Shown piece after piece: positions 30,178-54,049 of a stretch of 54,049 nt of DNA. The stretch comes from a virus. The stretch lies in the IMG/VR virus record IMGVR_UViG_3300009370_001261, positions 1 through 54,049 of that record, one strand, 5' to 3'. The notes below the pieces were generated by a model. The model had not been told where the DNA came from. It saw nothing but the letters and a program-made list of their open reading frames with translations, and did not search any database. Both the position numbers and the translations under genes were made by a program. Positions within the stretch are counted from its first letter, which is position 1. Each line of letters begins with the position of its first letter.

Positions 30178-30615
30178 ATGATACTTGAAATTTTATTCCC
30201 ATTATTTATAATACTTTATTGGTTTTCAGAAGGAGTAACGGAAGGTTATACTTGGGCAAAACCAAAACGTAGAAATTCAAACAAACTTATTCACCCGAAT
30301 AATAAATCAAATGGCTTAATGGATTATCATGGATGGCGTGTGCTAGAACAAATAGGAATATGGGGTACAGTATTCACTTCATTTTTTTATACTTTACCGT
30401 TCCAAACCTGGTTTTTAACTGGATTGGGATCATGGCTTATTGGTACAGCAGTTTATGAAATGGCACTTAACCATGTAGATAAAGGAACAATTTACAAACC
30501 TAATACTTTTAAGTGGCACATTTGGGGATATGATATACCATGGCTAGTAGGTAAGTTTATCTGGGTTATATTTACAGTTGGTGTATTAATTTTAGGATAT
30601 GGAATAATTAGATGA
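30178..30615 (+). CDS. Integral membrane protein of unknown function
   Basis: 145 residues, strongly hydrophobic: segments near 1-18 (MILEILFPLFIILYWFSEG), about 60-82 (WGTVFTSFFYTLPFQTWFL), 82-98 and 123-143 (FIWVIFTVGVLILGYGII), so about three to four membrane spans. Preceded by TAGGAGACGATAAT. It is the first gene after the promoter-like motif and carries no capsid-targeting peptide, unlike the genes that follow. No family recognised. Confidence 0.6.
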   Translation: MILEILFPLFIILYWFSEGVTEGYTWAKPKRRNSNKLIHPNNKSNGLMDYHGWRVLEQIGIWGTVFTSFFYTLPFQTWFLTGLGSWLIGTAVYEMALNHVDKGTIYKPNTFKWHIWGYDIPWLVGKFIWVIFTVGVLILGYGIIR

Positions 30616-31601
30616 TTAAATTAAAAGATTTATTATATGAAAATAAGGCTGGTGATGTAGAGGATAAAATCCGTAAGGTATTCTTGATGGAACCGGGTAG
30701 TTTTAACACTGGTTGGAAAATGTCTAAACGACAATATAAAGGACTTATAAAAACTTTAAAAAAACAGTTTGGTAGTGTAGTAGATAAAGTTGTAAAAGAA
30801 CTTGAAAAATATAAATATATTGAACCACAAGGACCAATGATTGTTTGGAATGATAGTGTTCAAAATGATGGAACTGTTATTAGTGAGGGAGTAAATGACC
30901 CTGGTATATTCAAAGCAGTATTCCTTAGTGGAGGACCTGGAAGTGGAAAAACTTATGTTGCATCTCAATTATTCGGAATCCCCGAAAAAGTTAATGTATC
31001 ATATTCTGGACTTAAAATGGTAAATCAAGATACAGAATTAGAAAATTTTCTGAAAAAGTATTTTGGAACTGTTGATATTGATAATATGCCCGATGAATTA
31101 TTCAAACAACTTACAGATCCAACTTATGATGATTATAGTGGAATGAGAGGTCGTACAAAAGAACTTAGTAAGACTAAATTAAAAATATACACACAAGGTA
31201 GATTGGGTGTTATTATTGATGGTACTGGACATAAATTTAAAGACATAAAAGACCAAAGAGATGATTTAATAAAACTGGGATATGATACTTTTATGGTATT
31301 TGTTAATACTTCATTAGAAGTTGCACAAAAACGAAATGAAGAACGACCACGAAGATTACCGGCAAACCTTGTAGAAAAATCGTGGAAAGAAGTTCAAAAT
31401 AACATGGCATATTTCCAGGGATTATTTGGTGGTGCTAATTTTCTATTGGTTGATAATAAAAAACATTTAAGTCCAAAACAGGCACAGTCTAAATTTAATA
31501 TGTTGGTTGGTAAAGGTATTGGTAAATTTTTAAAGAAACCAATTAAGAATAAACAAGCTTTGAAATGGATTGAAAAACAAAAATTGTTGAAGAAACGATG
31601 A
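30612..31601 (+). CDS. Capsid-targeted P-loop kinase-like protein
   Basis: 329 residues. N-terminus MIKLKDLLYE with L-Y-E at the gp21-type cleavage position; a further possible site is VISE before GVNDPG (about residue 95). Walker A is SGGPGSGKT with Lys113; VVIDGTGHKF-like IIDGTGHKFKDI and VAQKRNEERPRR resemble zeta-toxin/polynucleotide-kinase enzymes (base/sugar kinases). After cleavage the mature protein would start at residue 11. Substrate unknown; the family includes polynucleotide 5'-kinases and UDP-GlcNAc kinases (zeta toxins), so it could be either a repair enzyme or an anti-host effector. Start ATGA-overlaps the previous stop. Confidence 0.7.
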   Translation: MIKLKDLLYENKAGDVEDKIRKVFLMEPGSFNTGWKMSKRQYKGLIKTLKKQFGSVVDKVVKELEKYKYIEPQGPMIVWNDSVQNDGTVISEGVNDPGIFKAVFLSGGPGSGKTYVASQLFGIPEKVNVSYSGLKMVNQDTELENFLKKYFGTVDIDNMPDELFKQLTDPTYDDYSGMRGRTKELSKTKLKIYTQGRLGVIIDGTGHKFKDIKDQRDDLIKLGYDTFMVFVNTSLEVAQKRNEERPRRLPANLVEKSWKEVQNNMAYFQGLFGGANFLLVDNKKHLSPKQAQSKFNMLVGKGIGKFLKKPIKNKQALKWIEKQKLLKKR

Positions 31602-32635
31602 TTAAATTAAAACAACTAATAAATGAAGATTGGTGGAGTGATTTAGACCAATCAGGTCAGGCAGCTTACATAAAATCTCACCCACAAAGTAAAAAGGCAC
31701 AGGATGCCAAAAAGAAAGAAAAAAAATCAGGAAAACCTAATCAACCTGGTCTTGGAACGGGTAGTAAAAATCTAACTGGTCCTAAATCAAAAGAAGATGC
31801 ATTAGGTGATAATCCAAAAAAAGAAGCAGCCATAGTTCAAGGTATAAAGGCAATGGCTTCTAAAAATAGGGGTAAACATCCTAAAGACCAAGATAAATCG
31901 GTTGATATTGGTGACAAAGAAACTACTAATTTATGTGATGTAACTGTACCAGGAACCAATATATTCTGTGCTGATAGTAAGGGAATACCACGAGCTAAAA
32001 TGCCACAATTAAAATCTAAGCCGTGGAAAAGGGGTGAAGGTGAACCTTGGGTATATAATGAAAAAACTGGACAACATGAACCTACAAAATTTGAAGAAAC
32101 GGATGAAGAATATGCACAAAGAGTTCCAGCCTCTAAATTACCACAAGACGGACAGGGAGAGGTAAATACAGAAGATGCATTTAAAAGAAATTTAGAGTCA
32201 ATTGGAGTTAAAATGTCTGAACCAAAACCTATGAGTGTTAGAGATATGAAGGCAACTCAAAATGAATTAAAACCTGCAAATGTTGCGTTTATGAGTGATG
32301 TATTAATGAATGCAACTCCACCACCACACAAAGACAAAGATGCAGAAAAAAAGTGGAAACTATCAGAGAAATTACGAGAACCTGTTATTGTTTCAAAGGA
32401 CGGATATATTTTAGACGGACATCACAGATGGGGAGCGTTAGTTGCACTTGATATTGCAAACGGTGGTAGTGGTGAAATTGAAATGAATGTAAAAATGGTT
32501 GATGCTGGAGCAGAAGAATTAGTAGAAAAGACAAATGAGTTTACACAGAAACAAGGATTGCAAACTAAACCGGCAGAGAAAAAGAAGAAGAAAGAAAGTA
32601 TAATTAGAATGGTGGATTTACTCAATGGCAGGTAA
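31598..32635 (+). CDS. Capsid-targeted ParB/Srx-like protein
   Basis: 345 residues. N-terminus MIKLKQLINE (I-N-E site) followed by DWWSDLDQSGQAAYIKSHPQ, which is paralogous to the start of the gene at 50103 (DWWSEKSVKDQAQYIKDHPA). A long low-complexity Lys/Gly/Pro linker follows (about 40-210). The C-terminal domain has PVIVSKDGYILDGHHRWGAL with DGHHRW at 273-278, the core of ParB/sulfiredoxin-type domains, which can be CTPases or DNA-nicking enzymes. The gene ends with a Lys-rich tail. Start overlaps the previous stop as ATGA. Confidence 0.65.
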   Translation: MIKLKQLINEDWWSDLDQSGQAAYIKSHPQSKKAQDAKKKEKKSGKPNQPGLGTGSKNLTGPKSKEDALGDNPKKEAAIVQGIKAMASKNRGKHPKDQDKSVDIGDKETTNLCDVTVPGTNIFCADSKGIPRAKMPQLKSKPWKRGEGEPWVYNEKTGQHEPTKFEETDEEYAQRVPASKLPQDGQGEVNTEDAFKRNLESIGVKMSEPKPMSVRDMKATQNELKPANVAFMSDVLMNATPPPHKDKDAEKKWKLSEKLREPVIVSKDGYILDGHHRWGALVALDIANGGSGEIEMNVKMVDAGAEELVEKTNEFTQKQGLQTKPAEKKKKKESIIRMVDLLNGR

Positions 32636-32948: not shown

Positions 32949-33134
32949 ATGATAAAATTGAAAAAAATATTAACAGAAGCACCAAAGAAAAATAAGTGGA
33001 AGATTCAAATAGAAGTTGAAATTCCAGAAGGTAAAGGCTATCATTATTTATACAATATATTTTACGGTGGGGTGTTAAGTGGATATGAAAAACACGAAAA
33101 TTGGAAAATTAAAAAGCTGGTAATAAAACAATGA
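32949..33134 (+). CDS. Small capsid-targeted protein
   Basis: 61 residues. Begins MIKLKKILTE (L-T-E site) then APKKNKWKIQIEVEIPEGKG. The 51 residues after the predicted cut are mainly beta strands with basic and aromatic residues. No family recognised. The previous stop is three bases upstream. Confidence 0.55.
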   Translation: MIKLKKILTEAPKKNKWKIQIEVEIPEGKGYHYLYNIFYGGVLSGYEKHENWKIKKLVIKQ

Positions 33135-33397
33135 TTAAACTAAAAGATATAATAGAAGCACTTGCAAGTGGATACGCAAATAGAACAGATTTTAAAGGGC
33201 TGAAAAAGAATAGTGTAGTTAAATTGCATGATGGAACAATAGCAAAGATTTTAGAAAGAGTGGCTCCAAGAATACCACAATTTTTTGCAGTAGTAGAAAA
33301 GGTTGGCACAAAGATGAAGAATACTGCCGGTAAGAAAGCTAAAGTAGGTGATACAATTAAATTTGCAGAAGCATATATTAGAGAGAGAATAAAATGA
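33131..33397 (+). CDS. Small capsid-targeted protein
   Basis: 88 residues. Begins MIKLKDIIEA, with I-I-E at residues 7-9. The rest (KKNSVVKLHDGTIAKILERV, KKAKVGDTIKFAEAYIRERI) reads like a small SH3-like or KOW-like beta barrel, as VVKLHDGTIAKI and VGDTIKF suggest. Function unknown. Start and stop overlap its neighbours as ATGA on both sides. Confidence 0.55.
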   Translation: MIKLKDIIEALASGYANRTDFKGLKKNSVVKLHDGTIAKILERVAPRIPQFFAVVEKVGTKMKNTAGKKAKVGDTIKFAEAYIRERIK

Positions 33398-33675
33398 TTA
33401 AATTAAAAGATTTATTAACGGAAAAGAAAACTATATCTATTGATACTGCACAAGATATGAGAAAGGCAGGTTATTGGATATTAGTGTCTAATAACTTGAA
33501 GAAAGTAATTGCGGTAGATAAAGATGAAAAGAATTTAATGAATATACAAAAGCAAAATAGAGGTAAATTTAAGTTATTTGAACCATTAAAAACTATAAAA
33601 ATATCACCAGAACAACAACGTGAATACCATAGATTACATAAACTGATTTGGAAGAATAGTGGGTTCGGTGGATGA
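33394..33675 (+). CDS. Small capsid-targeted protein
   Basis: 93 residues. Begins MIKLKDLLTE (L-T-E). The following part alternates strands and helices (MRKAGYWILVSNNLKKVIAV, ISPEQQREYHRLHKLIW) with no recognised domain. The first 30 bases of the gene are nearly identical to those of the next gene. ATGA overlap on both sides. Confidence 0.55.
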   Translation: MIKLKDLLTEKKTISIDTAQDMRKAGYWILVSNNLKKVIAVDKDEKNLMNIQKQNRGKFKLFEPLKTIKISPEQQREYHRLHKLIWKNSGFGG

Positions 33676-34571
33676 TTAAACTAAAAGATTTATTAACGGA
33701 AATTTCTTGGGAAAAAACTCAACTACATATGATGAATAGTACAATGATTCCACTATCTAAAAAAGTAGTGAATATGATTGTTGGTGATGTAGATGTTCCC
33801 ACATTTCACGTTACGGATTTTAAAGGGTTAAAAGCCATAAAGAAACTTCAAGGTACATCAAAGGCATTATCCACATTTACTACAAATGCACAAAGTAATA
33901 TAGGTAATTTAGGTGGTGTAAGAACAGACGGTGGATTTCTTGTACATCTTATCGGTAAATTAAAGATAGCTTCGACTGATGACATATTCTCCCGGCCAGA
34001 TAAAACTGGTATGAGATGGGTTGGTAGTGAACCAGACCACCAATCATCCCTTACACATATTTTAAACAAAGCATCGGATAGTGATATAGGAAATAAAATA
34101 AGAGGTGGGATGTATTTTGCATTTGATAAATCATATAAAAAATTAAAGTTAAAATATACAATAGATAGGGCAATAGATAAAGTTACTCTATATAATAAAG
34201 ATGGAAGTGAATTTACTGACATTAAAAAACTATTTAACTTGTATGAAAAGGAAGTATTAAAGGTATTAAAGAAATATCAGAAACAATTAAATAAACATTT
34301 TGGAGACCCACAGCCATACAAAGGTGATTGGTATTGGAATGAATTAGTAGTTGATAAAATCATGATAGTGGATGTATTAGCATATGTGAAAGATAAGTAT
34401 TACTATGATGATGAAACATTTGAAGATGACAATATTACATTTGACGAACAAGAAAGGAGAAAGGAAATTGAACAAGCACAAAAAATGTTTGGTAGTAAAA
34501 TAGAAATAACGAATGAACCAAAAGATATAAACAAATGGATTTCCGACAGGGGAGGAGATGCATTCTTTTAG
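33672..34571 (+). CDS. Capsid-targeted protein, possible ADP-ribosyltransferase-like fold
   Basis: 299 residues. Begins MIKLKDLLTE (L-T-E) then ISWEKTQLHMM. TFHVTDFKGLKAIKKLQGTS, KALSTFTTN, GGFLVHLIGKLKI resemble the H-x-T, gl..i...q, STF order of ART-type NAD-binding folds such as those in toxins; I cannot place the catalytic Glu with confidence. The C-terminal half is acidic (DDETFEDDNITFDEQE). If an ART, it would parallel T4 Alt, a packaged ADP-ribosyltransferase. Family assignment is tentative. Confidence 0.5.
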   Translation: MIKLKDLLTEISWEKTQLHMMNSTMIPLSKKVVNMIVGDVDVPTFHVTDFKGLKAIKKLQGTSKALSTFTTNAQSNIGNLGGVRTDGGFLVHLIGKLKIASTDDIFSRPDKTGMRWVGSEPDHQSSLTHILNKASDSDIGNKIRGGMYFAFDKSYKKLKLKYTIDRAIDKVTLYNKDGSEFTDIKKLFNLYEKEVLKVLKKYQKQLNKHFGDPQPYKGDWYWNELVVDKIMIVDVLAYVKDKYYYDDETFEDDNITFDEQERRKEIEQAQKMFGSKIEITNEPKDINKWISDRGGDAFF

Positions 34572-34911: not shown

Positions 34912-35015
34912 TGTTTTGGGATTTTATATTAGAAAAGTTTGATTTATTATTATTAACAGCAATAGTATTTGTAATACTATATTATGTAATGAAATTAGGT
35001 AATGATAAAACTTAA
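34911..35015 (+). CDS. Small single-pass membrane protein
   Basis: 34 codons; ATG overlaps the previous stop (TAATG) and the end overlaps the next gene by 14 bases. Product has MFWDFILEKFD then a membrane span LLLLTAIVFVILYYVM and a short polar tail. Such miniature membrane proteins are common in phage but this one has no known function. It also positions the ribosome for the next start. Confidence 0.5.
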   Translation: MFWDFILEKFDLLLLTAIVFVILYYVMKLGNDKT

Positions 35016-35499
35016 AGACCTTATAGTAGAACGAATGACTAATCAGGTATTTTTACCACGTGACAATTTTGATCCACTTAAGCTACCAAAGGGAAAACTC
35101 AAAATAACTGGAGTGAATGGATATTCGAATAAACCAATAGGTGCATTTTGGACTTCATCTTGGAGTATGAAAACATTAAGTAGTGGATGGGCAGAATGGA
35201 CTAAATGGGAAATGCCAGATTGGAATAGTGGTGATGGAGTTGTATTTGAGGTAAAAAGTGCTAAACTTTATACTATTAATAATAAGAAAGATTATGAAAA
35301 ATTAAGAGAGAAATTTCCATATGAGAGTAAAAGTTATGGCGGAGAAAATTTTTTAGATTGGCCAAAATTAAGTAAAAAGTATGATGGTATTAATGTTAAA
35401 AATCCATATGCACACCAAGCTTTACATGCTTGGGATGTAGAGAGTACAGCTTGGTTTAATATGAAACCATTAAAATTTATTGGAACTGTAGCAATATGA
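35002..35499 (+). CDS. Capsid-targeted protein, possible ADP-ribosyltransferase-like fold (second)
   Basis: 165 residues. Begins MIKLKDLIVE (I-V-E site). KPIGAFWTSSWS, SSGWAEWTKWEMPDW and FLDWPKLSKKYDGINV, then LHAWDVESTAWFNMKP, match a widespread uncharacterised pattern (KP.GLW.S...GW..W ... DW..l...YDGI ... WD.eS..WF). I associate this pattern with ART-like folds, but that is a recollection, not a computed match. The gene is followed by a vestigial MIKLK start. Confidence 0.5.
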   Translation: MIKLKDLIVERMTNQVFLPRDNFDPLKLPKGKLKITGVNGYSNKPIGAFWTSSWSMKTLSSGWAEWTKWEMPDWNSGDGVVFEVKSAKLYTINNKKDYEKLREKFPYESKSYGGENFLDWPKLSKKYDGINVKNPYAHQALHAWDVESTAWFNMKPLKFIGTVAI

Positions 35500-36146: not shown

Positions 36147-39100
36147 GTGTATAAGAAGATTTTAAATGAGTTTAGTGGAGATAAAATAGGAGATTTTATA
36201 GTAGAAAACGATGTAATTTCTATTATAAAAGAAGGTGCAGATACTGTAAGAGCTCCTGTAGATGATGGACCTGGAACATTTTACAGATCATTAAATCAAT
36301 ATAAACAAGAAACAACGGATTGGGTAAAACAATTACAAAACGATTTAGGATATAAAGTAATAGGATATATTTTAAGTGATGGTGCAATGGATCCGGAAGA
36401 AGATTATACTATGGATTATAGGGACGTTCCTGCAATTTCATATGGAGCCAAGAAAAAGTATAAAACCAGATTACGTGATGTAATTGAAAATCTTGGTTGG
36501 AGAGTGATGAAATGGATGGGAGTAGATGATACAAATGTATTGTTTGCAGGTCCACCAATAGCTTCTGGTATTGATGCGGGTGGTCGTATGGAAGATAATA
36601 TACGGAATACGTCTGATATTGCAGAAAAATCACCTAAATTTAAAGGTGGTCGCCCAAGACTTCATGTAGAAAATAAAGTATTTTCTCCAGAATGGTGGAA
36701 ACAAAATTTGGTAGAAGGGGTTACACAATTTTATGGTCTTTCAATTGAAGAATTACTTAATACTGTATTAAATTTCAAGGGAAAAACTCTTATTTATTTT
36801 GATACTGAAACTCTTGGATTCCAACCTAAAACTGATTATTTACAACTTACTGAAATAGCTGCAATCGCGTATAGTGGAGATACATTTAAAGAAGTTGGTA
36901 AATTAGATTATAAGGTTAATTTAAATAAAGCAGCAAAAAATGTTATGAAGAAAGGAACTCCTGAACGTAAGAGTTGGGATGATCATGTTAGTCCTCGTGA
37001 TAAGTTACAAACTCCACAAGACGTATTGAAGATGACTCGGTATGGTAGTAAAACAGCACCGTTTGTATTGGAGGCACATTCATTAAATATATTATTTGAA
37101 TTCATAAATAAGTATAAAAATCCAATTTTAATTGCTCACAATGCACCATTTGATTTAAAATATCTTGGTGTTCGTGCAAGCAAATATGGAATTAAAATGA
37201 AAAAGTATAAATCATTAGATACTTTAGCATTAAATAGAATGTTTTTTATTCCGTTGTTAAAATCAGTTGAAAAAAGTGATGAATTAGATTTAATATTGAA
37301 AAGCTTAACCAAGACTTCTAAAACAGGCAGAAAGAATGTATCATCTACACTTGGAAATTTAAGTAAAGCTATGAAAATAGATACTTCCAGTTGGCACAAT
37401 GCATTAGCAGATGTTGAAATGATGGTTGGAGTATTATCTAAAATGATAGAATTTCTAAAAAAATATAAAAATACAGATATAGAGAAATTGCATCGTGCAG
37501 AAGTTGAAAAGGTTGCTAAACAACGTCATAAAAAGAAACACAAAAAGAAAAGAAAGGAATCTATAGAGGAAGGTAGAAAATTAAAAGTTTTAGGAATTTA
37601 TCCTGGAAGATTTCAACCATTTGGGAGACATCATTATAAAGCTTATAAATATATGGCGAAGTTGTTTGGAAAGAATAATACATATATTTCAACTTCTAAT
37701 AAAGTAGATACAAAACGGTCTCCATTAAATTTTAAAGAAAAACAACAATTGATCTCTAAAATGGGGGTTCCAAGTAATAAAATTATTCTTAGTAGACTAC
37801 CGTATTTATGGAATAAACTAAACCCATTAAATCTTGATCTTGAAAATGTGGTTTTAGTATATGCTTTTGGGGTAAAAGATAAAGGTCGTATTACAGGTGG
37901 TAGTAAGAAAAGTGGTGGGAAATTATATTTTCAACCATATGAGAAGAATAAAAATAATCTGAAACCTGCTTCAGAACATTCTTACTATGTAGAAGTTCCT
38001 CATATATCTTTTAAAATAGAAGGTAAAGAAATTAGTGGAACTTGGATGAGAGAATTATTAGGATCTTCAAAGTATGAAGGTAAAAGGGAAAAAATTTTTA
38101 AGGAATTATTTGGTTATTTTGATAAAAGAATATATAAACTTGTAACTGATAAATTTAAGAAAATTTATGAAAGTGTCAGTAGGGATACAGTATTTTCTCC
38201 AGAATGGTGGAAAAAAGAAATGTTATTGGAAGGTGGAGCGGCCGGACACCTAAATCATCCATTTGATGATAAAGATTTAACATTTGGTGATTTAAAGAAA
38301 ATAATTAAATTAGGAATTGGTGGTAAGTTAAATAGAGAAGATAATGTTACAGAAAAAATGGATGGTCAAAACATTATGGTGTCATGGAAAGATGGTGAGT
38401 TAATAGCTGCCAGAAATAAAACTCAATTAAAAGGTTGGGGTAAAAATTCCATGACAGTAAATCAAGTTGTTAGTAAATTTAAAGGTCATGCGGTAAAATC
38501 TGTAAAAGATGCTTATGTTTTTGCAATAAAGGATTTAAATAGTGCAATAGGATCTTTAACAGAAAAACAAAAGAGAAAGATTTTTAATGACGGTCATAAT
38601 TTTATGAATTTAGAAATTATGTATGCTGCAAATCCAAATACTATTGATTATGATATTTCTGAATTAATTTTTCATGGTGCATTAGAATATGATGAAAAGG
38701 GAACTCCTATTGGAGAAGTTAAAGGAAGTGCTAGAATGTTGGAGGGAATGATTCGCCAGATAAATCAAAATATACAAAAAAAGTTTAAAATATCTAAACC
38801 AAATTTTTTGGATGTTCCTAAACACCAAGATTTTGGAAAATTAAAACCAAAATTTTTGAAACAAGTTGATAAGTTACGAAGTGAATTTGGACTTAATGAT
38901 TCGGATACGATTAGTGTATATCATCAAAGTTTTTGGAAAGAATATATTTATAATGCTAGTAAACAACATAATTATAAAATTCCTGATAGTGCTTTATTAG
39001 GATTAACAAAACGATGGGCATTTTTTGATAAATCGTATTCTGTTAGAGATATGAAAAGGGATATTGATAATGAAGTTTTTTTAGACTGGGTATTATCTAC

Positions 39101-39461
39101 TGATAAAAATGACCACACTAAAATTGTTAAAAGTAATATGAGACCGTTTGAGGTTTTATTTTTTGAAGTAGGGGTTGAAATTCTAAAAGGAGTTTCTGGA
39201 TTTATAGCTGCATCTCCAGATAAAACAGTTCTTCAAATAAGAAAGGATGTTACAAAGGCAATTAAAGCTATTAAAGGTGGTGGTGATATTAAGAAAATAA
39301 ATAGACTATCAGTTTTACTTGATAGATTAAATGCAATTGGTGGATTAAAATCAATAGTGCCGAGTGAGGGCATTGTTTTTAAATATAACGGAAAAACTTA
39401 TAAATTTACTGGAAGTTTCGCTCCTGTAAATCAAATCTTATCGTTAGTAACGTTTGGTTGA
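36147..39461 (+). CDS. Polyprotein: exonuclease, nucleotidyltransferase and nucleic-acid ligase domains separated by prohead-protease-like sites
   Basis: 1104 residues, GTG start with TTGGAG 8 bases upstream. N-terminus MYKKILNE gives an L-N-E site at residue 8, and I-K-E at 29. Residues 30-190 are unknown, ending VFSPEWWKQNLVE before Gly191. Residues 191-475: DEDDh exonuclease (DTET with Asp219/Glu221, HNAPFD with Asp336, HNALAD with His417/Asp422). KESIEE before Gly476 starts a cytidylyltransferase-like domain (GRFQPFGRHH, His495/His496; ISGTWMREL). VFSPEWWKKEMLLE before Gly696 starts a ligase-like domain (EKMDG with Lys737; EGIVFK 1074-1079). The repeated VFSPEWWK...E-G linker supports processing into separate enzymes that together look like a DNA/RNA end-repair kit. 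Packaging in the head is inferred. Confidence 0.75.
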   Translation: MYKKILNEFSGDKIGDFIVENDVISIIKEGADTVRAPVDDGPGTFYRSLNQYKQETTDWVKQLQNDLGYKVIGYILSDGAMDPEEDYTMDYRDVPAISYGAKKKYKTRLRDVIENLGWRVMKWMGVDDTNVLFAGPPIASGIDAGGRMEDNIRNTSDIAEKSPKFKGGRPRLHVENKVFSPEWWKQNLVEGVTQFYGLSIEELLNTVLNFKGKTLIYFDTETLGFQPKTDYLQLTEIAAIAYSGDTFKEVGKLDYKVNLNKAAKNVMKKGTPERKSWDDHVSPRDKLQTPQDVLKMTRYGSKTAPFVLEAHSLNILFEFINKYKNPILIAHNAPFDLKYLGVRASKYGIKMKKYKSLDTLALNRMFFIPLLKSVEKSDELDLILKSLTKTSKTGRKNVSSTLGNLSKAMKIDTSSWHNALADVEMMVGVLSKMIEFLKKYKNTDIEKLHRAEVEKVAKQRHKKKHKKKRKESIEEGRKLKVLGIYPGRFQPFGRHHYKAYKYMAKLFGKNNTYISTSNKVDTKRSPLNFKEKQQLISKMGVPSNKIILSRLPYLWNKLNPLNLDLENVVLVYAFGVKDKGRITGGSKKSGGKLYFQPYEKNKNNLKPASEHSYYVEVPHISFKIEGKEISGTWMRELLGSSKYEGKREKIFKELFGYFDKRIYKLVTDKFKKIYESVSRDTVFSPEWWKKEMLLEGGAAGHLNHPFDDKDLTFGDLKKIIKLGIGGKLNREDNVTEKMDGQNIMVSWKDGELIAARNKTQLKGWGKNSMTVNQVVSKFKGHAVKSVKDAYVFAIKDLNSAIGSLTEKQKRKIFNDGHNFMNLEIMYAANPNTIDYDISELIFHGALEYDEKGTPIGEVKGSARMLEGMIRQINQNIQKKFKISKPNFLDVPKHQDFGKLKPKFLKQVDKLRSEFGLNDSDTISVYHQSFWKEYIYNASKQHNYKIPDSALLGLTKRWAFFDKSYSVRDMKRDIDNEVFLDWVLSTDKNDHTKIVKSNMRPFEVLFFEVGVEILKGVSGFIAASPDKTVLQIRKDVTKAIKAIKGGGDIKKINRLSVLLDRLNAIGGLKSIVPSEGIVFKYNGKTYKFTGSFAPVNQILSLVTFG

Positions 39462-39505: not shown

Positions 39506-40179
39506 ATAAACTTGAAAAGAGAATGTTAAAACTCATAAATGAAGCATCTCCAAGTGGAACGGATAGTGGACTTGGTATAATTACAGGTGATGCATGGCCC
39601 GATGGTCTTTACACTAAACGTGGAGAACGGAGAATAGTAACACCTGCAAGTTTAACTCGTGGTATGAAACAAATTGATTTCCCTGCATCAGACAACATTT
39701 ATGGTGGTAAAGGAAGTTTAAATAATTTGAAACGAGCAGAACGAGATAAGGCAATGGTATTTCGTTATTTAAGTGGTCCAGAAGAATACGCATCAATAAT
39801 GGCAGATGAATTAAGGGATGATACTCCACCATTGGCACCTAAACAAAGATTATATGGAATACATGGATTTCATAGGAAACAAGAATACACAATTCCACCA
39901 GAAACTCATAATTTTCATTCTACTGCAGAAACTCTCATAAAACCAACTACCGCTCCAGAAGGAACTGAAAGTGGTGGAGTTCCAAATACACCAGAACCTG
40001 GATCCAAAGAAAGTGGTGGAACTGGATATAGACAAAAACAGGAGGGTGGTCAATCCTTATTCGCTAAAAATGAAAAATTATGGGGAAAGTGGACAGACCA
40101 TAGAATAGGAAGTAAAATAGATAGTAGAGAATGGAAGGGAAATAAATTAGTTGATTTATTACCGAAGGGGAAAAAATAA
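39502..40179 (+). CDS. Possible capsid-targeted protein
   Basis: 225 residues from ATG at 39502 (an in-frame TTG at 39490 adds four residues). Begins MNKLEKRMLKLINEA: I-N-E at the gp21-type site. The rest is Gly/Pro/charge-rich with little predicted core (APEGTESGGVPNTPEPGSKE). It looks like a disordered virion protein. Stop overlaps next start (TAATG). Confidence 0.5.
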   Translation: MNKLEKRMLKLINEASPSGTDSGLGIITGDAWPDGLYTKRGERRIVTPASLTRGMKQIDFPASDNIYGGKGSLNNLKRAERDKAMVFRYLSGPEEYASIMADELRDDTPPLAPKQRLYGIHGFHRKQEYTIPPETHNFHSTAETLIKPTTAPEGTESGGVPNTPEPGSKESGGTGYRQKQEGGQSLFAKNEKLWGKWTDHRIGSKIDSREWKGNKLVDLLPKGKK

Positions 40180-40490
40180 TGGCAATTACAATAGATGTAA
40201 AAGTTGGAGATACTATTCTTACCGGAAAATTTAAGAATAAGAAAACAGTAATTAAAAAAATTGGTGTAGATAAACATGGAATGCCGACTATAAACGATAG
40301 AAAAGTCGTAACGTTTAGAATACACAAAAAAGTCAATATATTTGATAAAGATTTTACTGAAGATGTAGAACGTGATAATGATGGATATGGTAAATACAAA
40401 GAACCAACGGATAGTGAATTTGATGAACCTTCAAAAACTAAAAAATTAGAAGGTAAATCGACATACAAACAAATAATGGAGATTAAATAA
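40179..40490 (+). CDS. Conserved small protein of unknown function
   Basis: 103 residues. KVGDTILTGKFKNKKTVIKK then IGVDKHGMPTINDRKVVTF resembles small proteins commonly found in T4-like structural regions; fold likely an SH3-like barrel (VGDTILTGKF) with an acidic tail. Overlaps neighbours by TAATG. No role known. Confidence 0.5.
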   Translation: MAITIDVKVGDTILTGKFKNKKTVIKKIGVDKHGMPTINDRKVVTFRIHKKVNIFDKDFTEDVERDNDGYGKYKEPTDSEFDEPSKTKKLEGKSTYKQIMEIK

Positions 40491-43727: not shown

Positions 43728-46700
43728 ATGGCAGATACAACATTAAGAAGTAGACTCAAAAGACTTTTCAGCACCAACGTGATCGTTAGACACGCAGGTG
43801 GTAAAAAGTTAAAAATAGCAGATACAAATAGAGTTCAACAAGCTACACGAAATAGTCTTGTGGATAGATGGTCCAGAATACACACTAATTTAACAACTGG
43901 TGGATACGGACACGCACAGGCAATTAGTTTTCAAGCTCAACGACTTGCACTATTTAGAGATTATGAGGAAATGGACGCTGATGCTATCATTTCAAGTGCT
44001 CTTGACATTTATGCAGATGAATGTTTAAGTTCAGATACTATAATTCCATTATTAGATGGCCGTAAATTAACAATTAAAGAATTATTTGATGAAAATGATC
44101 GAAACTTTTGGTTATACGGATTAGATGATACTGGGAATTTTATACCATCTAAAGCGGATAAGGTGGTATACAAAGGCAAATCTGAAGTGTATGAAATTAC
44201 ATTAGAAGATGGTACTATCTTAAAATCGACAGGAAACCATAGATGGGTAAATGGGAGCGGTGAATTAGTGTATACAGATACTTTAAGTGTTGGTGATGGT
44301 ATATATGCATTAAATACTAAACTTAGTGATAAAAAATTAAACGGGTATTTAATGATAAAAAATAATGGAAAATTTGATTTTGTTCATAGAATCGTTGCAA
44401 ATTCAATAGATATTTTGAAAAATATGAGAAAATCTAAATCTACGAAAGCAGTTATACATCATTCGGCATTTGATAAGTTAAATAATTCACCTGATCATTT
44501 AGAGTGGTTAGAACCTGATGATCATTGGAAAGTCCATGCAAAGTTTAATAAAGAGCTATGGTCAGACAAAAATATGGTGCATGAATATAAAGAAAAAACA
44601 ACAATGGGGCATAAAAAATACTGGACTGATGAAAATAGAAGAAAAAAATCAATAGAACAGCATGAATTTATGAATAATTTTTTGAAAAATACTACATTTG
44701 AAGATAGACAAAAATTATATGCAAATTTTGGTAGAGATAATGGAATGTATAATAACGGAAATAAACTTGAGGGTTCTAAAAATGGTAGATGGTTAACTGA
44801 TATTGATAGATTAACTGATATTGATTTAGTGGAAGTAGTAGAGTTTTTAATGGAAAATTATACGGGAGGTAGAGATACAAATGTATTTAATATAATACAA
44901 AAGAAATATAATTTTAATGTTGAAGAGTTACAAAAAGTAAAAAATAAAATATGTGAATTATATAATATAGATAATATAAAATCATTACCACGAAAATATA
45001 ATGCAATGATAAATACTCACTTGTTAGATGAGATGAGATTAGTTATTGATGATTTTGAAAAAAATCCCAAACGAAATTATGATAAATTATGTAATAAAAT
45101 AAACACAAGTAAACGTGTTTTTAATAACATTTTATATGAAAGTGGATACAAACATTTTTCAGATTTTGTAGGCAGTTCTAATCATAGAATTGTTTCTATT
45201 AAAAAACTTGAGGCTGTGGAAGATGTTTATGATATAGTAAACGCTGGTGAAAATCATATATATGCATTAGAATCCAATGATGGGTCCAAAATATATACTC
45301 ATAACAGCACTATGAAAAGTGAGTACGGTCAAGTTTTAGAAATTAGATCAGAAAATGAAAATATAAATGATATATTACACAACCTATACTATGACGTTTT
45401 GAATATAGAATTCAATTTGTGGCCGTGGGTTCGTAATATGTGTAAATATGGTGATTTTTATTTATATTTAGATATTAAAGATAAATATGGTATTACAAAT
45501 GTAGTCCCACTTTCAGCATATGACGTAACTCGTATTGAAGGTGAAGATCCAGAAAATCCATATATGGTACAGTTTGTAGTAGAAGAGGGTGATACTCGAC
45601 ATACTGGTAGAATGAGCGGACAAAAGGAATTAGAAAACTATGAAATAGCTCATTTCAGACTATTGAGTGATTCTAATTTCCTACCATACGGAAAGGGTAT
45701 GATTGAAGGCGGTCGCAAAATCTGGAAACAACTTTCATTAATGGAAGACGCCATGTTAATTCATCGTATTATGAGAGCACCAGAAAAACGAGTATTCAAA
45801 TTTGATATTGGAAACATTCCACCAGCTGAAGTTGATAATTTTATGCAGAAGGTTACAAACAAAATGAAGAAGGCTCCAGTTATGGATCCAAAAACAGGAG
45901 ATTACAACCTTCGGTATAACATACAAAATCTTACAGAGGATTTTTTCATTCCTGTTCGTGGTGGGGATAGTGGAACAGAAATTGATACTTTGAGTGGTCT
46001 TACATACGAAGCTGTGGATGATATAGAGTATCTACGAAACAAGTTAATGGCATCATTAAAGATACCAAAGGCGTTCCTTGGATACGAAGAAAATGTAGGA
46101 TGTGTAGTTCCTGAAACTGAAATTCCATTGTTAAATGGTGAAGTAAAAACTGTTAAAGATATTATTGAAGATTATGAAAATGGAATTAAACATTATACAT
46201 ATGCGATAGACCCAGAAACTAATATGATTGTTCCTGGTGAAATAGAATGGGCTGGATATACTAAAAAAGATGCTGAATTAGTTAGGGTTAATTTAGATAA
46301 TGATAAATATATTGATTGTACACCAGACCATAGATTTTTAACGAGAGATGGTGATTGGGTTGAAGCTCAAGATTTAGAAGAAAATCAATCTTTAATGCCG
46401 TTGTATTTAGATGAAACTACACAAAAGAATAAACATGGATACGTAACTGTTTATCATCCTGGAACCGGTGTATATCAAGAAGTTCATAGATTAGTAGCAG
46501 AACATTATAATATGGTAACAGCTGGTAGTGGAAAGGTCGTTCATCATGCTGATTTTAATAAAGTTAATAATAATCCCGAAAATTTTGATTGTTCTATGAA
46601 TTACATGGAACATCGACAATATCATAGTCGGTTAATTAATAAGACTATGAATTCTCCAGAAAATATCAGAAAACGTGTTCAGAAACAACGTACTGATAAT

Positions 46701-48041
46701 CACTTTGTGACTGCTGGAAGAAAGGGTGGTTTGAAATCTACTGATCGATTAGTCGCCTGGAATAAAAAACATGGTGTTTGGAATAAAGATAAAAATATTG
46801 ATGTCGAATGCAAACATTGCGGAACAATGTTTAATGTTCAATCATATAGAAAAAATACAGCATCATATTGTTCTTTCCGGTGTAGAGATGTAGCATATTC
46901 TATAAATAAAACTGGTAATACTTATAATACCAAGTATATTATTGATTATGATTACTTAGTTACTATTGCTAAAGAATGCTCTTCTTTTAAAGAATTAGAA
47001 ACAAAATTAGATTTGACAAGAAGTACGTTAAATCGAGCCTTCTATTATCATAACATAGACAAGGTTCAGTTTCTATTCAAGTACATGCCACATGCATTAA
47101 AAAACAAAAACTTTATGCAGAATTATAGACAACATGAAAAACAATATTTGAATCATACAGTCAGTTCAGTAGAGTTTTTAAGTGAAGTAAAAGATACTTG
47201 TGATTTAACAATTACAAAATATCATAATTTCGCAACAAATGCTGGGGTGATAATTCACAACTCAAAAGCGACTCTTGCGGCAGAAGATGTTAGATTTGCA
47301 AGAACAATAGAAAGACTACAACGAATCATTACAAGTGAATTAACTAAAATTGGTATAGTCCACTTATATGCACAAGGTTATACAGACCAAGAGTTAGTCA
47401 ATTTTGATTTGGCATTAAAAAATCCATCTACAATATATGAAGAGGAAAAGATAGAGTTATGGAATAACAAACAAAGTCTTGCTTCAAGTATGATGGACTC
47501 TAAAATAGCAGACACAGAGTGGATTTATGATAATATATTTAAGTTTACCGAAGATGAAAAGAAGGATGTTAGACTTGGATTGATTAAAGACCAAAAACGT
47601 AAGTTTAGATGGGAACAGATAGAACAAGAAGGAAACGACCCAGTTCAAAGTAATGAAGCAGTAGGAACACAAGGAGCAATGATAGCAGGCGGTGGTGGTG
47701 AACAAGAAGGTGGTGGAAGTCCATTTGGTAGAACCGGTAAAGAATTAGATATGGAAATGCCAGATGACGGATGGCCAGGAAGTGGTCGTCCAAAAGAGGG
47801 ACCTAAACACGGTAAAGATTCAAGTGTTAGAGGTCGAGATCCATTAGGTGCTCACGATAAGAGAAAAGGTGGCAGTGGAAGTCCAAAATATGGTCTTGCA
47901 CTAGCACATTATGATGCATTAAAGAAGAGTTTAGGTAAAGTCGGTAAGGAAGATAGAAAGATTCTATTTGAAGCTGGTGATGTAGAACAAGAATATAAGA
48001 ATGAAGTATCTTCTTCATTAAATAATGGATCAAATGATTGA
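43728..48041 (+). CDS. Portal protein, gp20 type, interrupted by two in-frame inteins
   Basis: 1437 codons; after removal of residues 99-526 and 792-1178 the exteins join to about 622 residues. Extein blocks: DIYADE then STMKSEYGQVLE; FRLLSDSNFLPYGKGMIEGG; LMASLKIPKAFLGYEENVG then SKATLAAEDVRFARTIERLQ, all hallmark gp20 sequence. The C-terminal 90 residues are Gly/Pro-rich (EQEGGGSPFGRTGKELDMEM) and longer than T4 gp20 (524 residues). The portal ring is the head nucleation vertex and the DNA gate, so splicing is required for a functional virion. GAGG 7 bases before ATG. Confidence 0.95.
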   Translation: MADTTLRSRLKRLFSTNVIVRHAGGKKLKIADTNRVQQATRNSLVDRWSRIHTNLTTGGYGHAQAISFQAQRLALFRDYEEMDADAIISSALDIYADECLSSDTIIPLLDGRKLTIKELFDENDRNFWLYGLDDTGNFIPSKADKVVYKGKSEVYEITLEDGTILKSTGNHRWVNGSGELVYTDTLSVGDGIYALNTKLSDKKLNGYLMIKNNGKFDFVHRIVANSIDILKNMRKSKSTKAVIHHSAFDKLNNSPDHLEWLEPDDHWKVHAKFNKELWSDKNMVHEYKEKTTMGHKKYWTDENRRKKSIEQHEFMNNFLKNTTFEDRQKLYANFGRDNGMYNNGNKLEGSKNGRWLTDIDRLTDIDLVEVVEFLMENYTGGRDTNVFNIIQKKYNFNVEELQKVKNKICELYNIDNIKSLPRKYNAMINTHLLDEMRLVIDDFEKNPKRNYDKLCNKINTSKRVFNNILYESGYKHFSDFVGSSNHRIVSIKKLEAVEDVYDIVNAGENHIYALESNDGSKIYTHNSTMKSEYGQVLEIRSENENINDILHNLYYDVLNIEFNLWPWVRNMCKYGDFYLYLDIKDKYGITNVVPLSAYDVTRIEGEDPENPYMVQFVVEEGDTRHTGRMSGQKELENYEIAHFRLLSDSNFLPYGKGMIEGGRKIWKQLSLMEDAMLIHRIMRAPEKRVFKFDIGNIPPAEVDNFMQKVTNKMKKAPVMDPKTGDYNLRYNIQNLTEDFFIPVRGGDSGTEIDTLSGLTYEAVDDIEYLRNKLMASLKIPKAFLGYEENVGCVVPETEIPLLNGEVKTVKDIIEDYENGIKHYTYAIDPETNMIVPGEIEWAGYTKKDAELVRVNLDNDKYIDCTPDHRFLTRDGDWVEAQDLEENQSLMPLYLDETTQKNKHGYVTVYHPGTGVYQEVHRLVAEHYNMVTAGSGKVVHHADFNKVNNNPENFDCSMNYMEHRQYHSRLINKTMNSPENIRKRVQKQRTDNHFVTAGRKGGLKSTDRLVAWNKKHGVWNKDKNIDVECKHCGTMFNVQSYRKNTASYCSFRCRDVAYSINKTGNTYNTKYIIDYDYLVTIAKECSSFKELETKLDLTRSTLNRAFYYHNIDKVQFLFKYMPHALKNKNFMQNYRQHEKQYLNHTVSSVEFLSEVKDTCDLTITKYHNFATNAGVIIHNSKATLAAEDVRFARTIERLQRIITSELTKIGIVHLYAQGYTDQELVNFDLALKNPSTIYEEEKIELWNNKQSLASSMMDSKIADTEWIYDNIFKFTEDEKKDVRLGLIKDQKRKFRWEQIEQEGNDPVQSNEAVGTQGAMIAGGGGEQEGGGSPFGRTGKELDMEMPDDGWPGSGRPKEGPKHGKDSSVRGRDPLGAHDKRKGGSGSPKYGLALAHYDALKKSLGKVGKEDRKILFEAGDVEQEYKNEVSSSLNNGSND
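44022..45305 (+). mobile_element. Intein 1 in portal (428 residues) with HNH-type endonuclease domain
   Basis: Cys99 at the N-terminus (CLSSDTIIPLLDGRKLTIKE), block B with STGNHRW, block F DVYDIVNAGENHIYALES, and block G IYTHN followed by Ser as the +1 residue. Between them an HNH-like core VIHHSAFDKLNNSPDHLEWL. All residues for class 1 splicing are present. Inserted between DIYADE and STMKSEYG. Confidence 0.9.
46101..47261 (+). mobile_element. Intein 2 in portal (387 residues) with HNH-type endonuclease domain
   Basis: Cys792 at the N-terminus (CVVPETEIPLLNGEVKTVKD), block B CTPDHRFLTRDG, block F TCDLTITKYHNFATNAG, block G VIIHN then Ser. Internal VVHHADFNKVNNNPENFD is an HNH core, followed by a CKHC...CSFRC zinc finger. 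Inserted in the conserved ENVG/SKATLAAEDVRF block. Different endonuclease context and linker from intein 1, so it was acquired separately. Confidence 0.9.
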
Positions 48042-50663: not shown

Positions 50664-51275
50664 ATGGCTAAGCAGCTAATTGTAGATTATTTACCATTTT
50701 CGGTAAGTAGAGAACAAATAAACGAATCACTAAAAACTAACCAGGGCAGATTAATCGTACACGGAGTATTACAGAGAGCAGACGCTAAAAACCAGAATGG
50801 ACGTGTATATCCTGGTAAAATCCTCGCACGAGAAGCAAAGAAATATTCCGAAGGGTTTATTAATCAAAAACGGGCAATGGGTGAATTAGACCATCCAGAA
50901 TCATCCGTGGTAAATTTACAAAATGTATCTCATAATGTCACAGAAATGCATTGGGAAGGAGCTAACCTTGTTGGAACAGTAGAAGTATTGGGGACTCCAA
51001 GTGGAAACATTCTAACAGAATTATTTAAGGCGGGAATCAAATTAGGTATATCATCAAGAGGTATGGGTTCAGTGGAACCACTTAAAGAAGGTGAAGGACA
51101 ACAAGTGGGTGATGATTTTGAGTTAATTGCATTTGATTTTGTTAGTAATCCAAGTACACACGGTGCATTTCTATATCCACTTAAAGAGGGTGTAGATAAA
51201 GTAGAAGATGGTAGAACTTGTGGTAAATACTGTAAAGTAGAATTTATAATTAACGATATTATTAGAGGAGAATAG
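50664..51275 (+). CDS. Prohead core protease, gp21 type
   Basis: 203 residues. Family marks: GRLIVHGVLQRADAKNQNGR, GELDHP with catalytic His77, NLQNVSHNVTEMHWEGANLV, TPSGNILTELFKAGIKLG, SSRGMGS with Ser130/131. T4 gp21 digests the prohead core and cleaves head proteins after [L/I]-x-E, and the same sites occur in many genes of this window. AGGAG before ATG. The distal tail (EDGRTCGKYCKVEFIINDII) is unusual. Key enzyme for the cargo hypothesis. Confidence 0.9.
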   Translation: MAKQLIVDYLPFSVSREQINESLKTNQGRLIVHGVLQRADAKNQNGRVYPGKILAREAKKYSEGFINQKRAMGELDHPESSVVNLQNVSHNVTEMHWEGANLVGTVEVLGTPSGNILTELFKAGIKLGISSRGMGSVEPLKEGEGQQVGDDFELIAFDFVSNPSTHGAFLYPLKEGVDKVEDGRTCGKYCKVEFIINDIIRGE

Positions 51276-52048: not shown

Positions 52049-52099
52049 CCTTATAGTGGTGAAGAACACCCAGTTTGGGTGAAACATGAGGAAGAACCT

Positions 52100-54049
52100 A
52101 TGGACGAATATAAATCAAGATTATCAGCCTATCTTAGTGATATGGTAAGAGAAGAACTTGAAAAATACGATGGTGGATTCACCGATGAGTGGAATGACCA
52201 ACGAAAAAAGAATGCTGAAGTCTTAGGATATAAACTTTCGGGTAAAAGTGATATAAAAGAGGGAGCAACTGAATTTTGGCAGGATATGTTTAGACCAGGT
52301 AATATTCCAAACCAATACATAAACCAATTAATAAAGAAAAAAGGTGAACTTCCATCTAAGTCTCATATAAAAAAAATATACAGAGATAATGGAAATCCAA
52401 GTTCAAGTCAATTATCAAAGGCATTTAAACAGTTAGCAAAAGAAAAATATATTAAAAAACAAGGTAGTTTATGGAAATGGGAATCAGGTTTTGCTTGGAG
52501 AACTGGTACAGAATTAGAATCCGTAAATGAAAAAAGAATAAAAAATTCACCTTTAAGAAGAAATATTACATCTACATTTAAAGATTTAGATAAAAAATTT
52601 AGAAAAAAATTAACCAGTAGTGACATAGATAATGTAGCATCTCATATAACATCTAAGAATAGATATTTTCCTAAAGACTTGGCTAATGTTGCAGCTGAGT
52701 ATTTTTATGCATATAAACGACGCAAGTTAAAAATAAACCAAGCAATACAGGCTACTATAAATTATCAAAGAGGATATCCGTATAAAACCTATCGTACTGG
52801 TACAGAATTAGAATCCGTAAATGAAACTAAAAAGAGAGATTACAAAGCAGAATACAAAAAATATGGTTCATCTACAAAAGCAAAAAAATATAGAGCAGAA
52901 TTAAATAAGTATAACAGACAAAAAGGTACTTACGGTAACGGAGATGGAAAAGATGCTTCACATAAGGGAGGAAAAATCGTGGGATTTGAAAAGGAATCTA
53001 CTAATAGAGGTAGAGCCGAAAAGAGTAGATTGAAAAAAGAGATTACAGTAAAGGAAGGAAACTTCAAAATATCTAAACGAGATGCTAATAAATACAATAA
53101 ATTAGCACAAAAAGGTAACCCAGTAGGATTAGATTTAGATATTAGACCGGGTTGGTTAAGTTGGGAAGATGGAGATTATAAAACTCAATCTATAATTGGA
53201 GATGATGAAAATGGTAGAGAACACGAAATTAGATTTTCAGATGTGGTTAGAGTTAATGAATCTATGAACGAACAAAAATTAAGAAAAGTCATTAGAGATA
53301 TTTTGAATGAAGGCAAACCAAAGATTTATTCACTTCCAACAAGAAAACAAGATATTATCTATAAAATGTTATGGCATAGAAATCAACCAAAATGGCATAC
53401 ACCAGGAGAATTTGAACAATTTATTAAAAAGTATTTTAACAATTACCTTCCACCTCATATTGCTGACGGATTGAAAAAAACAAAGAGCGCTGAAGATTTT
53501 GTTAAATTTGTTAGAAAATTTGATTTCAAAGAAAGTGTTAATGAAGCAACAGAATTTATCGCAATTTACAACAGAAAAAAGATTATAGTAAAAGGTGATA
53601 GCCTTTATGATGCTAAATTACAAGCTATTAAACAATTAAAAGTTCCAAAATCAAAACAAGGTTATTTATCTATTATGTCTAAAAAAGGATATGATGACCA
53701 ACAATTTAGATATGAAAACATAAACGAAGCGAAAGTTCCAAAAAACATTAAAATATCTAAGCAAGGATATGTAAAACAAGTTCGTCATCCAATGACAAAT
53801 AAAATATTAAAAGCTATATATGTAAAAGGAAATAAATACCAGTATAATTCAGTATATAAAACATATAATAGTGTAAGGGGTAATCAACTATTATACAAGA
53901 CTGATATTGAGGGTATTAAGTATGAGAATATAAACGAAGGCATTTCCCAAGGTGATATTAAAGTAATTGATACACATGATATTCCTTCTTTTAAAGAAAC
54001 TAAACATTCTTACGAATTAGTGTATGTAATAAAACCAAGAGTTTTAGGT
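52100..54049 (+). CDS. Polyprotein with many prohead-protease-like sites (open at right edge)
   Basis: At least 650 codons with no stop before the edge; start ATG at 52100 with GAGGAAG 6-12 bases upstream. Candidate cuts fall after residues 144 and 242 (SVNE), 404 (ILNE then GKPK), 482 (SVNE then ATEF), 543 (NINE then AKVP), 613 (NINE then GISQ), giving fragments of about 98, 162, 78, 61 and 70 residues. RTGTELESVNE occurs twice, exactly 98 codons apart, and ENINE twice. LRKVIRDILNE at about 394-404 resembles the targeting helices of other genes. Fragment ATEFIAIYNRKKIIVKGDSL looks like a small DNA-binding domain. Likely a core/internal-protein precursor cut during head maturation. Confidence 0.6.
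   Translation, partial: MDEYKSRLSAYLSDMVREELEKYDGGFTDEWNDQRKKNAEVLGYKLSGKSDIKEGATEFWQDMFRPGNIPNQYINQLIKKKGELPSKSHIKKIYRDNGNPSSSQLSKAFKQLAKEKYIKKQGSLWKWESGFAWRTGTELESVNEKRIKNSPLRRNITSTFKDLDKKFRKKLTSSDIDNVASHITSKNRYFPKDLANVAAEYFYAYKRRKLKINQAIQATINYQRGYPYKTYRTGTELESVNETKKRDYKAEYKKYGSSTKAKKYRAELNKYNRQKGTYGNGDGKDASHKGGKIVGFEKESTNRGRAEKSRLKKEITVKEGNFKISKRDANKYNKLAQKGNPVGLDLDIRPGWLSWEDGDYKTQSIIGDDENGREHEIRFSDVVRVNESMNEQKLRKVIRDILNEGKPKIYSLPTRKQDIIYKMLWHRNQPKWHTPGEFEQFIKKYFNNYLPPHIADGLKKTKSAEDFVKFVRKFDFKESVNEATEFIAIYNRKKIIVKGDSLYDAKLQAIKQLKVPKSKQGYLSIMSKKGYDDQQFRYENINEAKVPKNIKISKQGYVKQVRHPMTNKILKAIYVKGNKYQYNSVYKTYNSVRGNQLLYKTDIEGIKYENINEGISQGDIKVIDTHDIPSFKETKHSYELVYVIKPRVLG
52502..52826 (+). repeat. 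Two copies of a 31-base direct repeat coding TGTELESVNE
   Basis: Identical 31-base blocks at 52502-52532 and 52796-52826, 294 bases (98 codons) apart and in the same frame. They encode the sequence around a predicted protease site, so duplicating the spacer would duplicate a cleavable unit. Confidence 0.8.

Follow-up and report, generated by a model that had tools for sequence, protein, structure and literature searches.

The subject of this study was a single gene, 36147–39461, within a 54,049-nucleotide stretch of viral DNA (positions 1 to 54,049 of IMG/VR record IMGVR_UViG_3300009370_001261; the whole of this stretch is called the window). An initial annotation, made from the sequence alone, had proposed that the gene encodes a DEDDh exonuclease, a cytidylyltransferase-like enzyme, and a KxDG ligase-like enzyme joined by cleavable linkers. 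In the following, window genes are named by their first position, related loci are designated by L numbers, and a slash within a sequence marks a predicted cut.

Organization of the 36147 gene

Both the window and two IMG/VR contigs, 100% identical in the gene, have it as a single uninterrupted frame. The continuous frame, the family assignments, and the intact motifs described below bear out the proposal that the three enzymes are encoded by one gene, where they form modules 2 to 4 (Table 1). The linkers had also been placed correctly. The motif VFSPEWWK occurs twice in the chain (residues 178–185 and 682–689) and continues each time to LxE-G, giving VFSPEWWKQNLVE190/G191 before the exonuclease and VFSPEWWKKEMLLE695/G696 before the KxDG module, and IEE-G (E475/G476) precedes the nucleotidyltransferase. 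An additional candidate site, IIKE29/G30, had been overlooked; it lies before module 1, and a segment homologous to residues 1–29 precedes the same module in L026, L024, L061, and L145, ending in [LI]xE in every case. The two FSPEWWK copies are followed by modules that bear no relation to each other, and in relatives this linker stands before other modules as well; judged by these sequences, the copies did not arise by local duplication of a single domain.

Table 1 Features of the 36147 gene and of other window genes
Feature	Position	Strand	Remarks
Candidate polyprotein gene	36147..39461	+	GTG start, GGAG 7 nt upstream, 1104 aa
N-terminal propeptide or targeting-like segment, MYKKILNEF..DFIVENDVISIIKE	36147..36233	+	Residues 1-29, predicted cut E29/G30
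Module 1, 'VDDGP' module	36234..36677	+	Residues 30-177; conserved in relatives at other chain positions
Linker VFSPEWWKQNLVE	36678..36716	+	Residues 178-190, predicted cut E190/G191
Module 2, DEDDh 3'-5' exonuclease with basic tail at end	36717..37559	+	PF00929, phrog_192, motifs
SIEE475/G476, predicted cut ahead of nucleotidyltransferase	37560..37571	+	
Module 3, NMNAT/cytidylyltransferase-type (HIGH superfamily) nucleotidyltransferase	37572..38176	+	phrog_395, AlphaFold, Foldseek
Linker VFSPEWWKKEMLLE	38190..38231	+	Residues 682-695, predicted cut E695/G696
Module 4, KxDG covalent-nucleotidyltransferase (ligase-like) module	38232..39458	+	Motifs, weak Foldseek matches
Prohead core serine protease, T4 gp21 homologue, presumed cutter	50664..51275	+	PF03420 1.2e-25, phrog_207 5e-51
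MIKLKDLLYE/N targeting-type start, then VISE92/GVNDPG before P-loop kinase	30612..31601	+	Two-module relative
MIKLKQLINE/DWW start, ParB-like nuclease region	31598..32635	+	
MIKLKDIIE/A start, small protein	33131..33397	+	
MIKLKDLLTE/K start, small protein	33394..33675	+	
MIKLKDLLTE/I start	33672..34571	+	
MIKLKDLIVE/R start	35002..35499	+	phrog_8582
Stand-alone 'VGD' module	40179..40490	+	Internal polyprotein module in relatives
Second putative polyprotein at scaffold (gp22) position	52079..54049	+	Runs past window end; many [LIV]xE sites

Motifs and folds of the modules

All of the catalytic motifs examined in the chain were intact. The exonuclease matched PF00929 (E=6e-8, above the cut-off) and phrog_192 (E=1.6e-15), and its acidic motifs I–III and catalytic His are present in DTET219, HNAPFD331, and HNALADVE417. 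The nucleotidyltransferase matched the cytidyltransferase profile phrog_395 (E=1.3e-7) and has intact motifs GRFQPF487 and SGTWMREL630; it carries GRFQPF followed by GRHHY, compared with the canonical (H/T)xGH of the HIGH superfamily. In the KxDG module we found motifs I (EKMDGQ736), Ia (ARNK755), III (MNLEI820), IV (EGIVF1074), and V (KFTG1086), of which I, III, IV, and V were invariant across six diverse relatives. Its match to PF09414 RNA_ligase fell below the cut-off (E=0.025), and comparison of its profile with PDB sequences gave no meaningful match. Pfam and PHROG scans gave no match for module 1.

AlphaFold modeling covered residues 476–1104 and residues 1–190. The first of these segments was predicted as two confident domains, with the predicted local confidence score (pLDDT) mostly 70–90 in the nucleotidyltransferase; the model of the second, containing module 1, was poor (pLDDT 43). 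In Foldseek searches the best matches of the nucleotidyltransferase model were NadD/NMNAT structures (probability 0.99–1.00), and the KxDG module gave weak matches to T4 Rnl1, Rnl2, and archaeal RNA ligases (E at least 0.017, probability ~0.6–0.75). Residues 678–700, between the two folded domains, had pLDDT <50. At this transferase-ligase junction the linker is thus predicted to be unstructured, rather than buried in one fold, the arrangement that the initial annotation had named as contrary to its proposal.

Coincidence of the junctions with the starts of stand-alone genes

The closest relatives of the exonuclease (L093–L095) are stand-alone genes with 69–74% identity (69–70% for L093 and L094). 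They start MKTFKQFCE/GKTQLYGLS, which lines up with ...LVE190/GVTQFYGLS of the window. Between the window and L094, DNA identity rose exactly at the E/G codon boundary, from 0.30 in the preceding 27 nt to 0.73 in the following 240 nt. The L094 exonuclease has the same basic tail and stops after it, where the window continues into SIEE/G.

In two relatives the three enzyme types are found apart. L093 has three separate genes, for a KxDG enzyme (MLRFKEYLSE/A), a GRFNPP nucleotidyltransferase, for which no targeting-type start was seen, and the exonuclease (MKTFKQFCE/G). L096 likewise has separate genes for the ligase (MRLHSFKDFVNE/S..LLIE/GGSFGH), the nucleotidyltransferase (MILEFKQFVE/S), and the exonuclease (MKIESYSNYTTLQE/A). 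Consecutive genes of Pelagibacter phage HTVC008M encode a KxDG protein (MYNDLLVE/D), a VGD protein, a kinase (MIPFILKE/GLYDPG), and a nucleotidyltransferase (MKTLKELL). Conversely, two features that lie outside the chain in the window, stand-alone 40179 and the kinase part of 30612, occur in other phages as internal modules of polyproteins. The junctions of the chain coincide exactly with the starts of stand-alone homologues carrying targeting-type propeptides.

Module order and the junction motif

At least 567 relatives of the KxDG ligase were found in IMG/VR. Among the loci inspected most have the ligase as part of a long chain, the longest reaching 1701 aa; a profile search of genome contigs returned only four contigs, binned in metagenome-assembled genomes, which we interpreted as phage-derived. 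With six module profiles, more than 10 module orders were recognized in the relatives, and the NMNAT and ligase modules share a chain in most architectures.

The motif [LIVMF]xE was present in 115 of 123 non-redundant linkers upstream of six module types, whereas the means obtained by shuffling sum to ~77. By module, the counts (shuffle means in brackets) were 13/15 for the exonuclease (8.2), 31/32 for NMNAT (19.7), 31/35 for the ligase (23.3), 19/19 for DDGP (14.2), 7/8 for VGD (4.4), and 14/14 for the kinase (6.8). In the 14 kinase contexts the motif occupies one identical position, directly before the GVNDPG-type start. The background frequency in 33-aa windows was 31% within modules and 55% in other open reading frames (ORFs). 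Judged by these sequence counts, enrichment of the motif at junctions exceeds chance. Linkers of the F[ST]xxWW type precede the ligase in L015 and L083, and other modules in L024, L043, L074, and L082. The argument that a linker repeated before two unrelated enzymes is explicable only by processing overstated the case; the linker is mobile, and taken alone it proves little.

Further modules were noticed in these comparisons. A short recurrent module, [E/]DWW[ST]..QxxYIxxHPxS, lies directly after xE in 31598–32635, 50103–50663, L026, and L040, both where separate proteins begin and within polyproteins. In L009 (4419–5735) a huge-phage exonuclease stands behind a 2H-phosphoesterase-like module, with the junction SINE/NKMWYK. 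The cyanophage T4-GC119 proteins, such as S-SM2 ADO97451 (L195 3992–6118), form a site-rich multi-module family with matches in ~500 phage records and have the KKHSDLYTDENPKGTI module in common with the marine polyproteins.

Protease and T4-like setting

T4 gp21 cleaves after L/I-x-E (PMC9026906). The 50664 protease is 31% identical to T4 gp21 (E 7e-23), and the ELDHP and GISSRG motifs align. The protease of Microcystis phage Mel-JY01 is 61% identical to that of the window, and the major capsid protein of this phage has LISE/A near its N-terminus, in the region corresponding to the LTE65/A site of T4 gp23. The window has a T4-like gene order, with terL (41407), the portal gene (43728), the protease gene, and the site-rich ORF 52079 at the scaffold position. 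The 36147 gene sits upstream of terL, away from the gp22 position.

Six genes upstream of 36147 (30612, 31598, 33131, 33394, 33672, and 35002) begin with a common MIKLK[DQ]-type segment that ends in xE, followed by unrelated sequences. In this they resemble T4 ipII and ipIII, which share the start MKTYQEFIAE/A; T4 ipI starts MKTFKEF.

Evidence for packaging in cultured phages

A putative cytidylyltransferase, T4-GC190, was detected together with gp21 by mass spectrometry in purified virions of cyanophage S-SM1 (Sullivan et al. 2010, PMC3037559). T4-GC190 starts MKKFSAFLNE/A, its neighbor T4-GC71 has a KxDG motif, and PHROG 455 covers both. T4-GC190 is distant from the window nucleotidyltransferase (phrog_395 in common; hhalign P=8e-5, probability 62%), and the sequence link of T4-GC71 to the window ligase is suggestive only (hhalign P=0.0019, probability 14%). 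Gp53 of Atu_ph07 (AUZ94865) is a multi-module protein of 778 aa with the form MKWNDLNE/A...SEVTE/GVNDKHIFKA that carries the kinase. It lies in the cluster CDS 31–76 and may be one of the 29 proteins of that cluster recovered from virions (PMC6102473).

Interpretation and alternatives

We conclude that the product of 36147 is very probably a polyprotein from which a marine phage of the T4 type derives internal head proteins. Its N-terminal segment, like the linkers within the chain, would act as T4 capsid-targeting propeptides do and bring the chain into the prohead core. There the gp21-type protease 50664 would cleave after [L/I]xE, at E29/G30, E190/G191, E475/G476, and E695/G696. The mature head would then contain module 1, the 3'-5' exonuclease, the NMNAT-type nucleotidyltransferase, and the RNA-ligase-like enzyme as separate proteins, and the freed enzymes would be ejected together with the DNA. 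We infer these steps, from entry and cutting through packaging, release, and ejection to enzymatic activity, for the present protein from its relatives and its setting. The chain probably arose through fusion of genes that are separate in other phages, most of them with their own propeptide. The earlier proposal of processing by the prohead protease is well supported by comparison: stand-alone propeptide-type starts fall at the predicted scissile bonds, [LI]xE recurs at shuffled junctions, the window encodes a gp21 homologue, and a distant cytidylyltransferase is found in cyanophage virions.

Several observations weigh against this interpretation. The motif [LIVMF]xE is short and occurs by chance in 31–55% of 33-aa windows. 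Glu is replaced by Met or Cys in ~43% of ligase-junction contexts, and cleavage exactly there is not universal. Further [LI]xE sequences lie inside folds (for example, LTE/I at 234–236) and must be assumed to be inaccessible. The virion detection concerns a distant homologue, T4-GC190, outside this phage and its close relatives, and the links to T4-GC190 and T4-GC71 are at the profile level only.

The chance occurrence of short motifs would also fit an uncut multidomain fusion, a tethered enzyme comparable to bifunctional NadM or the Pnkp-type repair fusions, in which the xE linkers are flexible spacers spread by recombination. Fusions such as the bifunctional NMNAT-Nudix are known, and the sharing of a chain by NMNAT and ligase in most architectures is in keeping with a tethered pair. 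We consider such a fusion unlikely, because stand-alone relatives begin at the same point with targeting-type peptides, the same xE rule holds for unrelated modules, module order changes freely, the modeled linker is unstructured, and a gp21-type protease is encoded nearby. It appears very unlikely that the chain is instead one of the polyvalent proteins defined by Iyer et al. (2017), and that it enters the cell intact and is cut there by a peptidase of its own or of the host. Its multidomain architecture with conflict-type enzymes is of that kind, and processing by an MPTase domain has been proposed for such proteins (PMC5512222); however, Pfam and PHROGs scans detected no peptidase domain in the 1104-aa chain, the junctions fit gp21-type [LI]xE sites, and the propeptides resemble T4 head targeting sequences.

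A gp21-type protease could also serve a chain that is mainly a scaffold or core protein, with cleavage merely clearing the head and the enzymes being passengers or degenerate. In T4, gp21 degrades gp22, gp67, and gp68 to peptides (PMC9026906), and ORF 52079, at the gp22 position, is site-rich. We give this explanation very little weight, since the catalytic motifs are intact, homologues of the exonuclease, ligase, and kinase exist as ordinary stand-alone genes, and 36147 is not itself at the gp22 position. ORF 52079 contains the repeated linkers RTGTELESVNE (twice) and YENINE[AG] (twice) and is likely another polyprotein.

A ligase junction with two states

The residue directly before the ligase GGxxGH sequence was Glu in 41 distinct contexts, Met in 29, and Cys in 2; the window itself carries the Glu, or protease, version. 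Counted at the DNA level, a core Shine-Dalgarno sequence was found 4–15 nt upstream in 32 of 33 Met-class junctions, compared with none of the 41 in the Glu class (the two Cys cases being counted among the rest) and 7% of other internal Met codons. Examples of the Met class are L062, L028, and L041, in which AAGGAG lies nine nt upstream; a typical junction of this class reads GGAAAGGAGTTATTATTAATGGG. The codon pair AAG GAG was used in 22 of 26 distinct Met-class cases. Because AAG and GAG make up only ~25% of Lys and Glu codons, selection apparently acts at the nucleotide level. On a tree of 93 ligases ~10 state changes were needed, at least 7–8 of them forced by well-supported branches. The reading frame is open through the Met-class junction; therefore, both the fusion and free ligase are expected. 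Another [LIVMF]xE is present farther upstream in 24 of the 29 Met-class contexts.

From these sequences, the same ligase boundary seems to be openable by either proteolysis or internal translation initiation, as interchangeable states. Opened by cutting, it would deliver the ligase in the head; opened also by internal initiation, it would allow ligase to be made free in the cell in addition. Such a junction suggests that evolution can switch an enzyme between delivery and synthesis in the cell. We think it probable that capsid-delivered polyproteins whose modules are freed by the head-maturation protease are widespread in marine T4-type phages, and that at their ligase junction LLxE/GG has repeatedly given way to an internal ribosome-binding site with a start codon, of the form AAGGAG-9 nt-ATG-GG. 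Two loci, L059 and L088, have Cys for Glu at the ligase junction (ILLQCGG and ILLLCGG) and no evident internal start.

Possible function of the enzyme set

Related chains contain further modules: the kinase, a 2H-phosphoesterase-like module (L009), and a Nudix-like module (L003), the latter two assigned by eye. By analogy, the exonuclease, ligase-type, kinase, 2H-like, and Nudix-like modules recall phage RNA-repair sets, and the NMNAT module recalls NAD-linked counter-defence; both have been discussed for phages (PMC7824862, PMC9503650). The likeliest role, with moderate support, is immediate-early repair of nucleic-acid ends, probably of RNA, together with NAD-linked counter-defence. RNA repair with NAD chemistry is at least as likely as DNA-end repair, because the KxDG module has its weak fold matches among RNA ligases and the nucleotidyltransferase resembles NMNAT. 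We judge the chances that it is the actual role to be about even. DNA-end processing is a good deal less probable, and some other function is about equally improbable. The repair or circularisation of incoming DNA ends and the action on host RNA that were first suggested are candidate functions, and the label of a repair kit is unproven.

Relation to known systems

The predicted protein belongs by its sequence features, four [L/I]xE junctions and a cognate gp21-family protease, with the T4 internal proteins IPI, IPII, IPIII, and Alt, whose capsid targeting sequences gp21 removes. It shares with them a short propeptide ending in [LI]xE, the T4-like gene order, and the logic of an ejected effector. 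In T4 every such protein is encoded separately, behind an N-terminal propeptide of its own, whereas here one chain would hold several enzymes with a site before each. Like the polyvalent proteins (P1 DdrB, N4 vRNAP; Iyer et al. 2017), the chain is large, has several conflict-type domains, and is predicted to enter with the DNA; unlike them, it is predicted to be processed in trans by a capsid-maturation protease at [LI]xE, and no MPTase domain was found. The adjacent S-SM1 proteins T4-GC190, with its propeptide-type start, and T4-GC71 offer a parallel pair of cytidylyltransferase and KxDG protein, but as separate genes with distant similarity to the window modules. In phiKZ, 201phi2-1, and SPN3US, gp21-related proteases process many head and ejected proteins after xxE, cutting some propeptides at several sites; the available portions of these accounts describe propeptide removal for SPN3US, rather than a single chain giving rise to several enzymes. 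The combination of an NMNAT fold with a Nudix-like neighbor (L003), a KxDG ligase-type module, and a P-loop kinase is reminiscent of bifunctional NadM (NMNAT-Nudix) and of the T4 RNA ligases and Pnkp, but here putative protease sites lie between the modules, which shuffle independently of one another.

The polyprotein strategy has long been considered typical of RNA viruses and retroviruses. We found no description of an enzyme polyprotein processed by the head protease of a tailed phage in the openly licensed literature, preprints excluded, which is not proof of absence. If our interpretation is correct, tailed phages use this strategy with the capsid-maturation protease as the processing enzyme, and the packaging, stoichiometry, and activation of injected enzymes would be coupled. 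The rule of [LI]xE at junctions would allow large hypothetical proteins encoded by marine and jumbo phages to be read as strings of injected enzymes, and what these phages inject would become directly testable by virion N-terminomics.

Other features of the window

The portal (gp20) gene, 43728–48041, contains two intein-like inserts with HNH motifs, and the portal gene of L003 also has intein-like inserts. Region 515–30116 is a long run of genes that by eye resemble those for nucleotide-sugar epimerases/dehydrogenases, aminotransferases, radical-SAM proteins, carbamoyltransferases, and glycosyltransferases.

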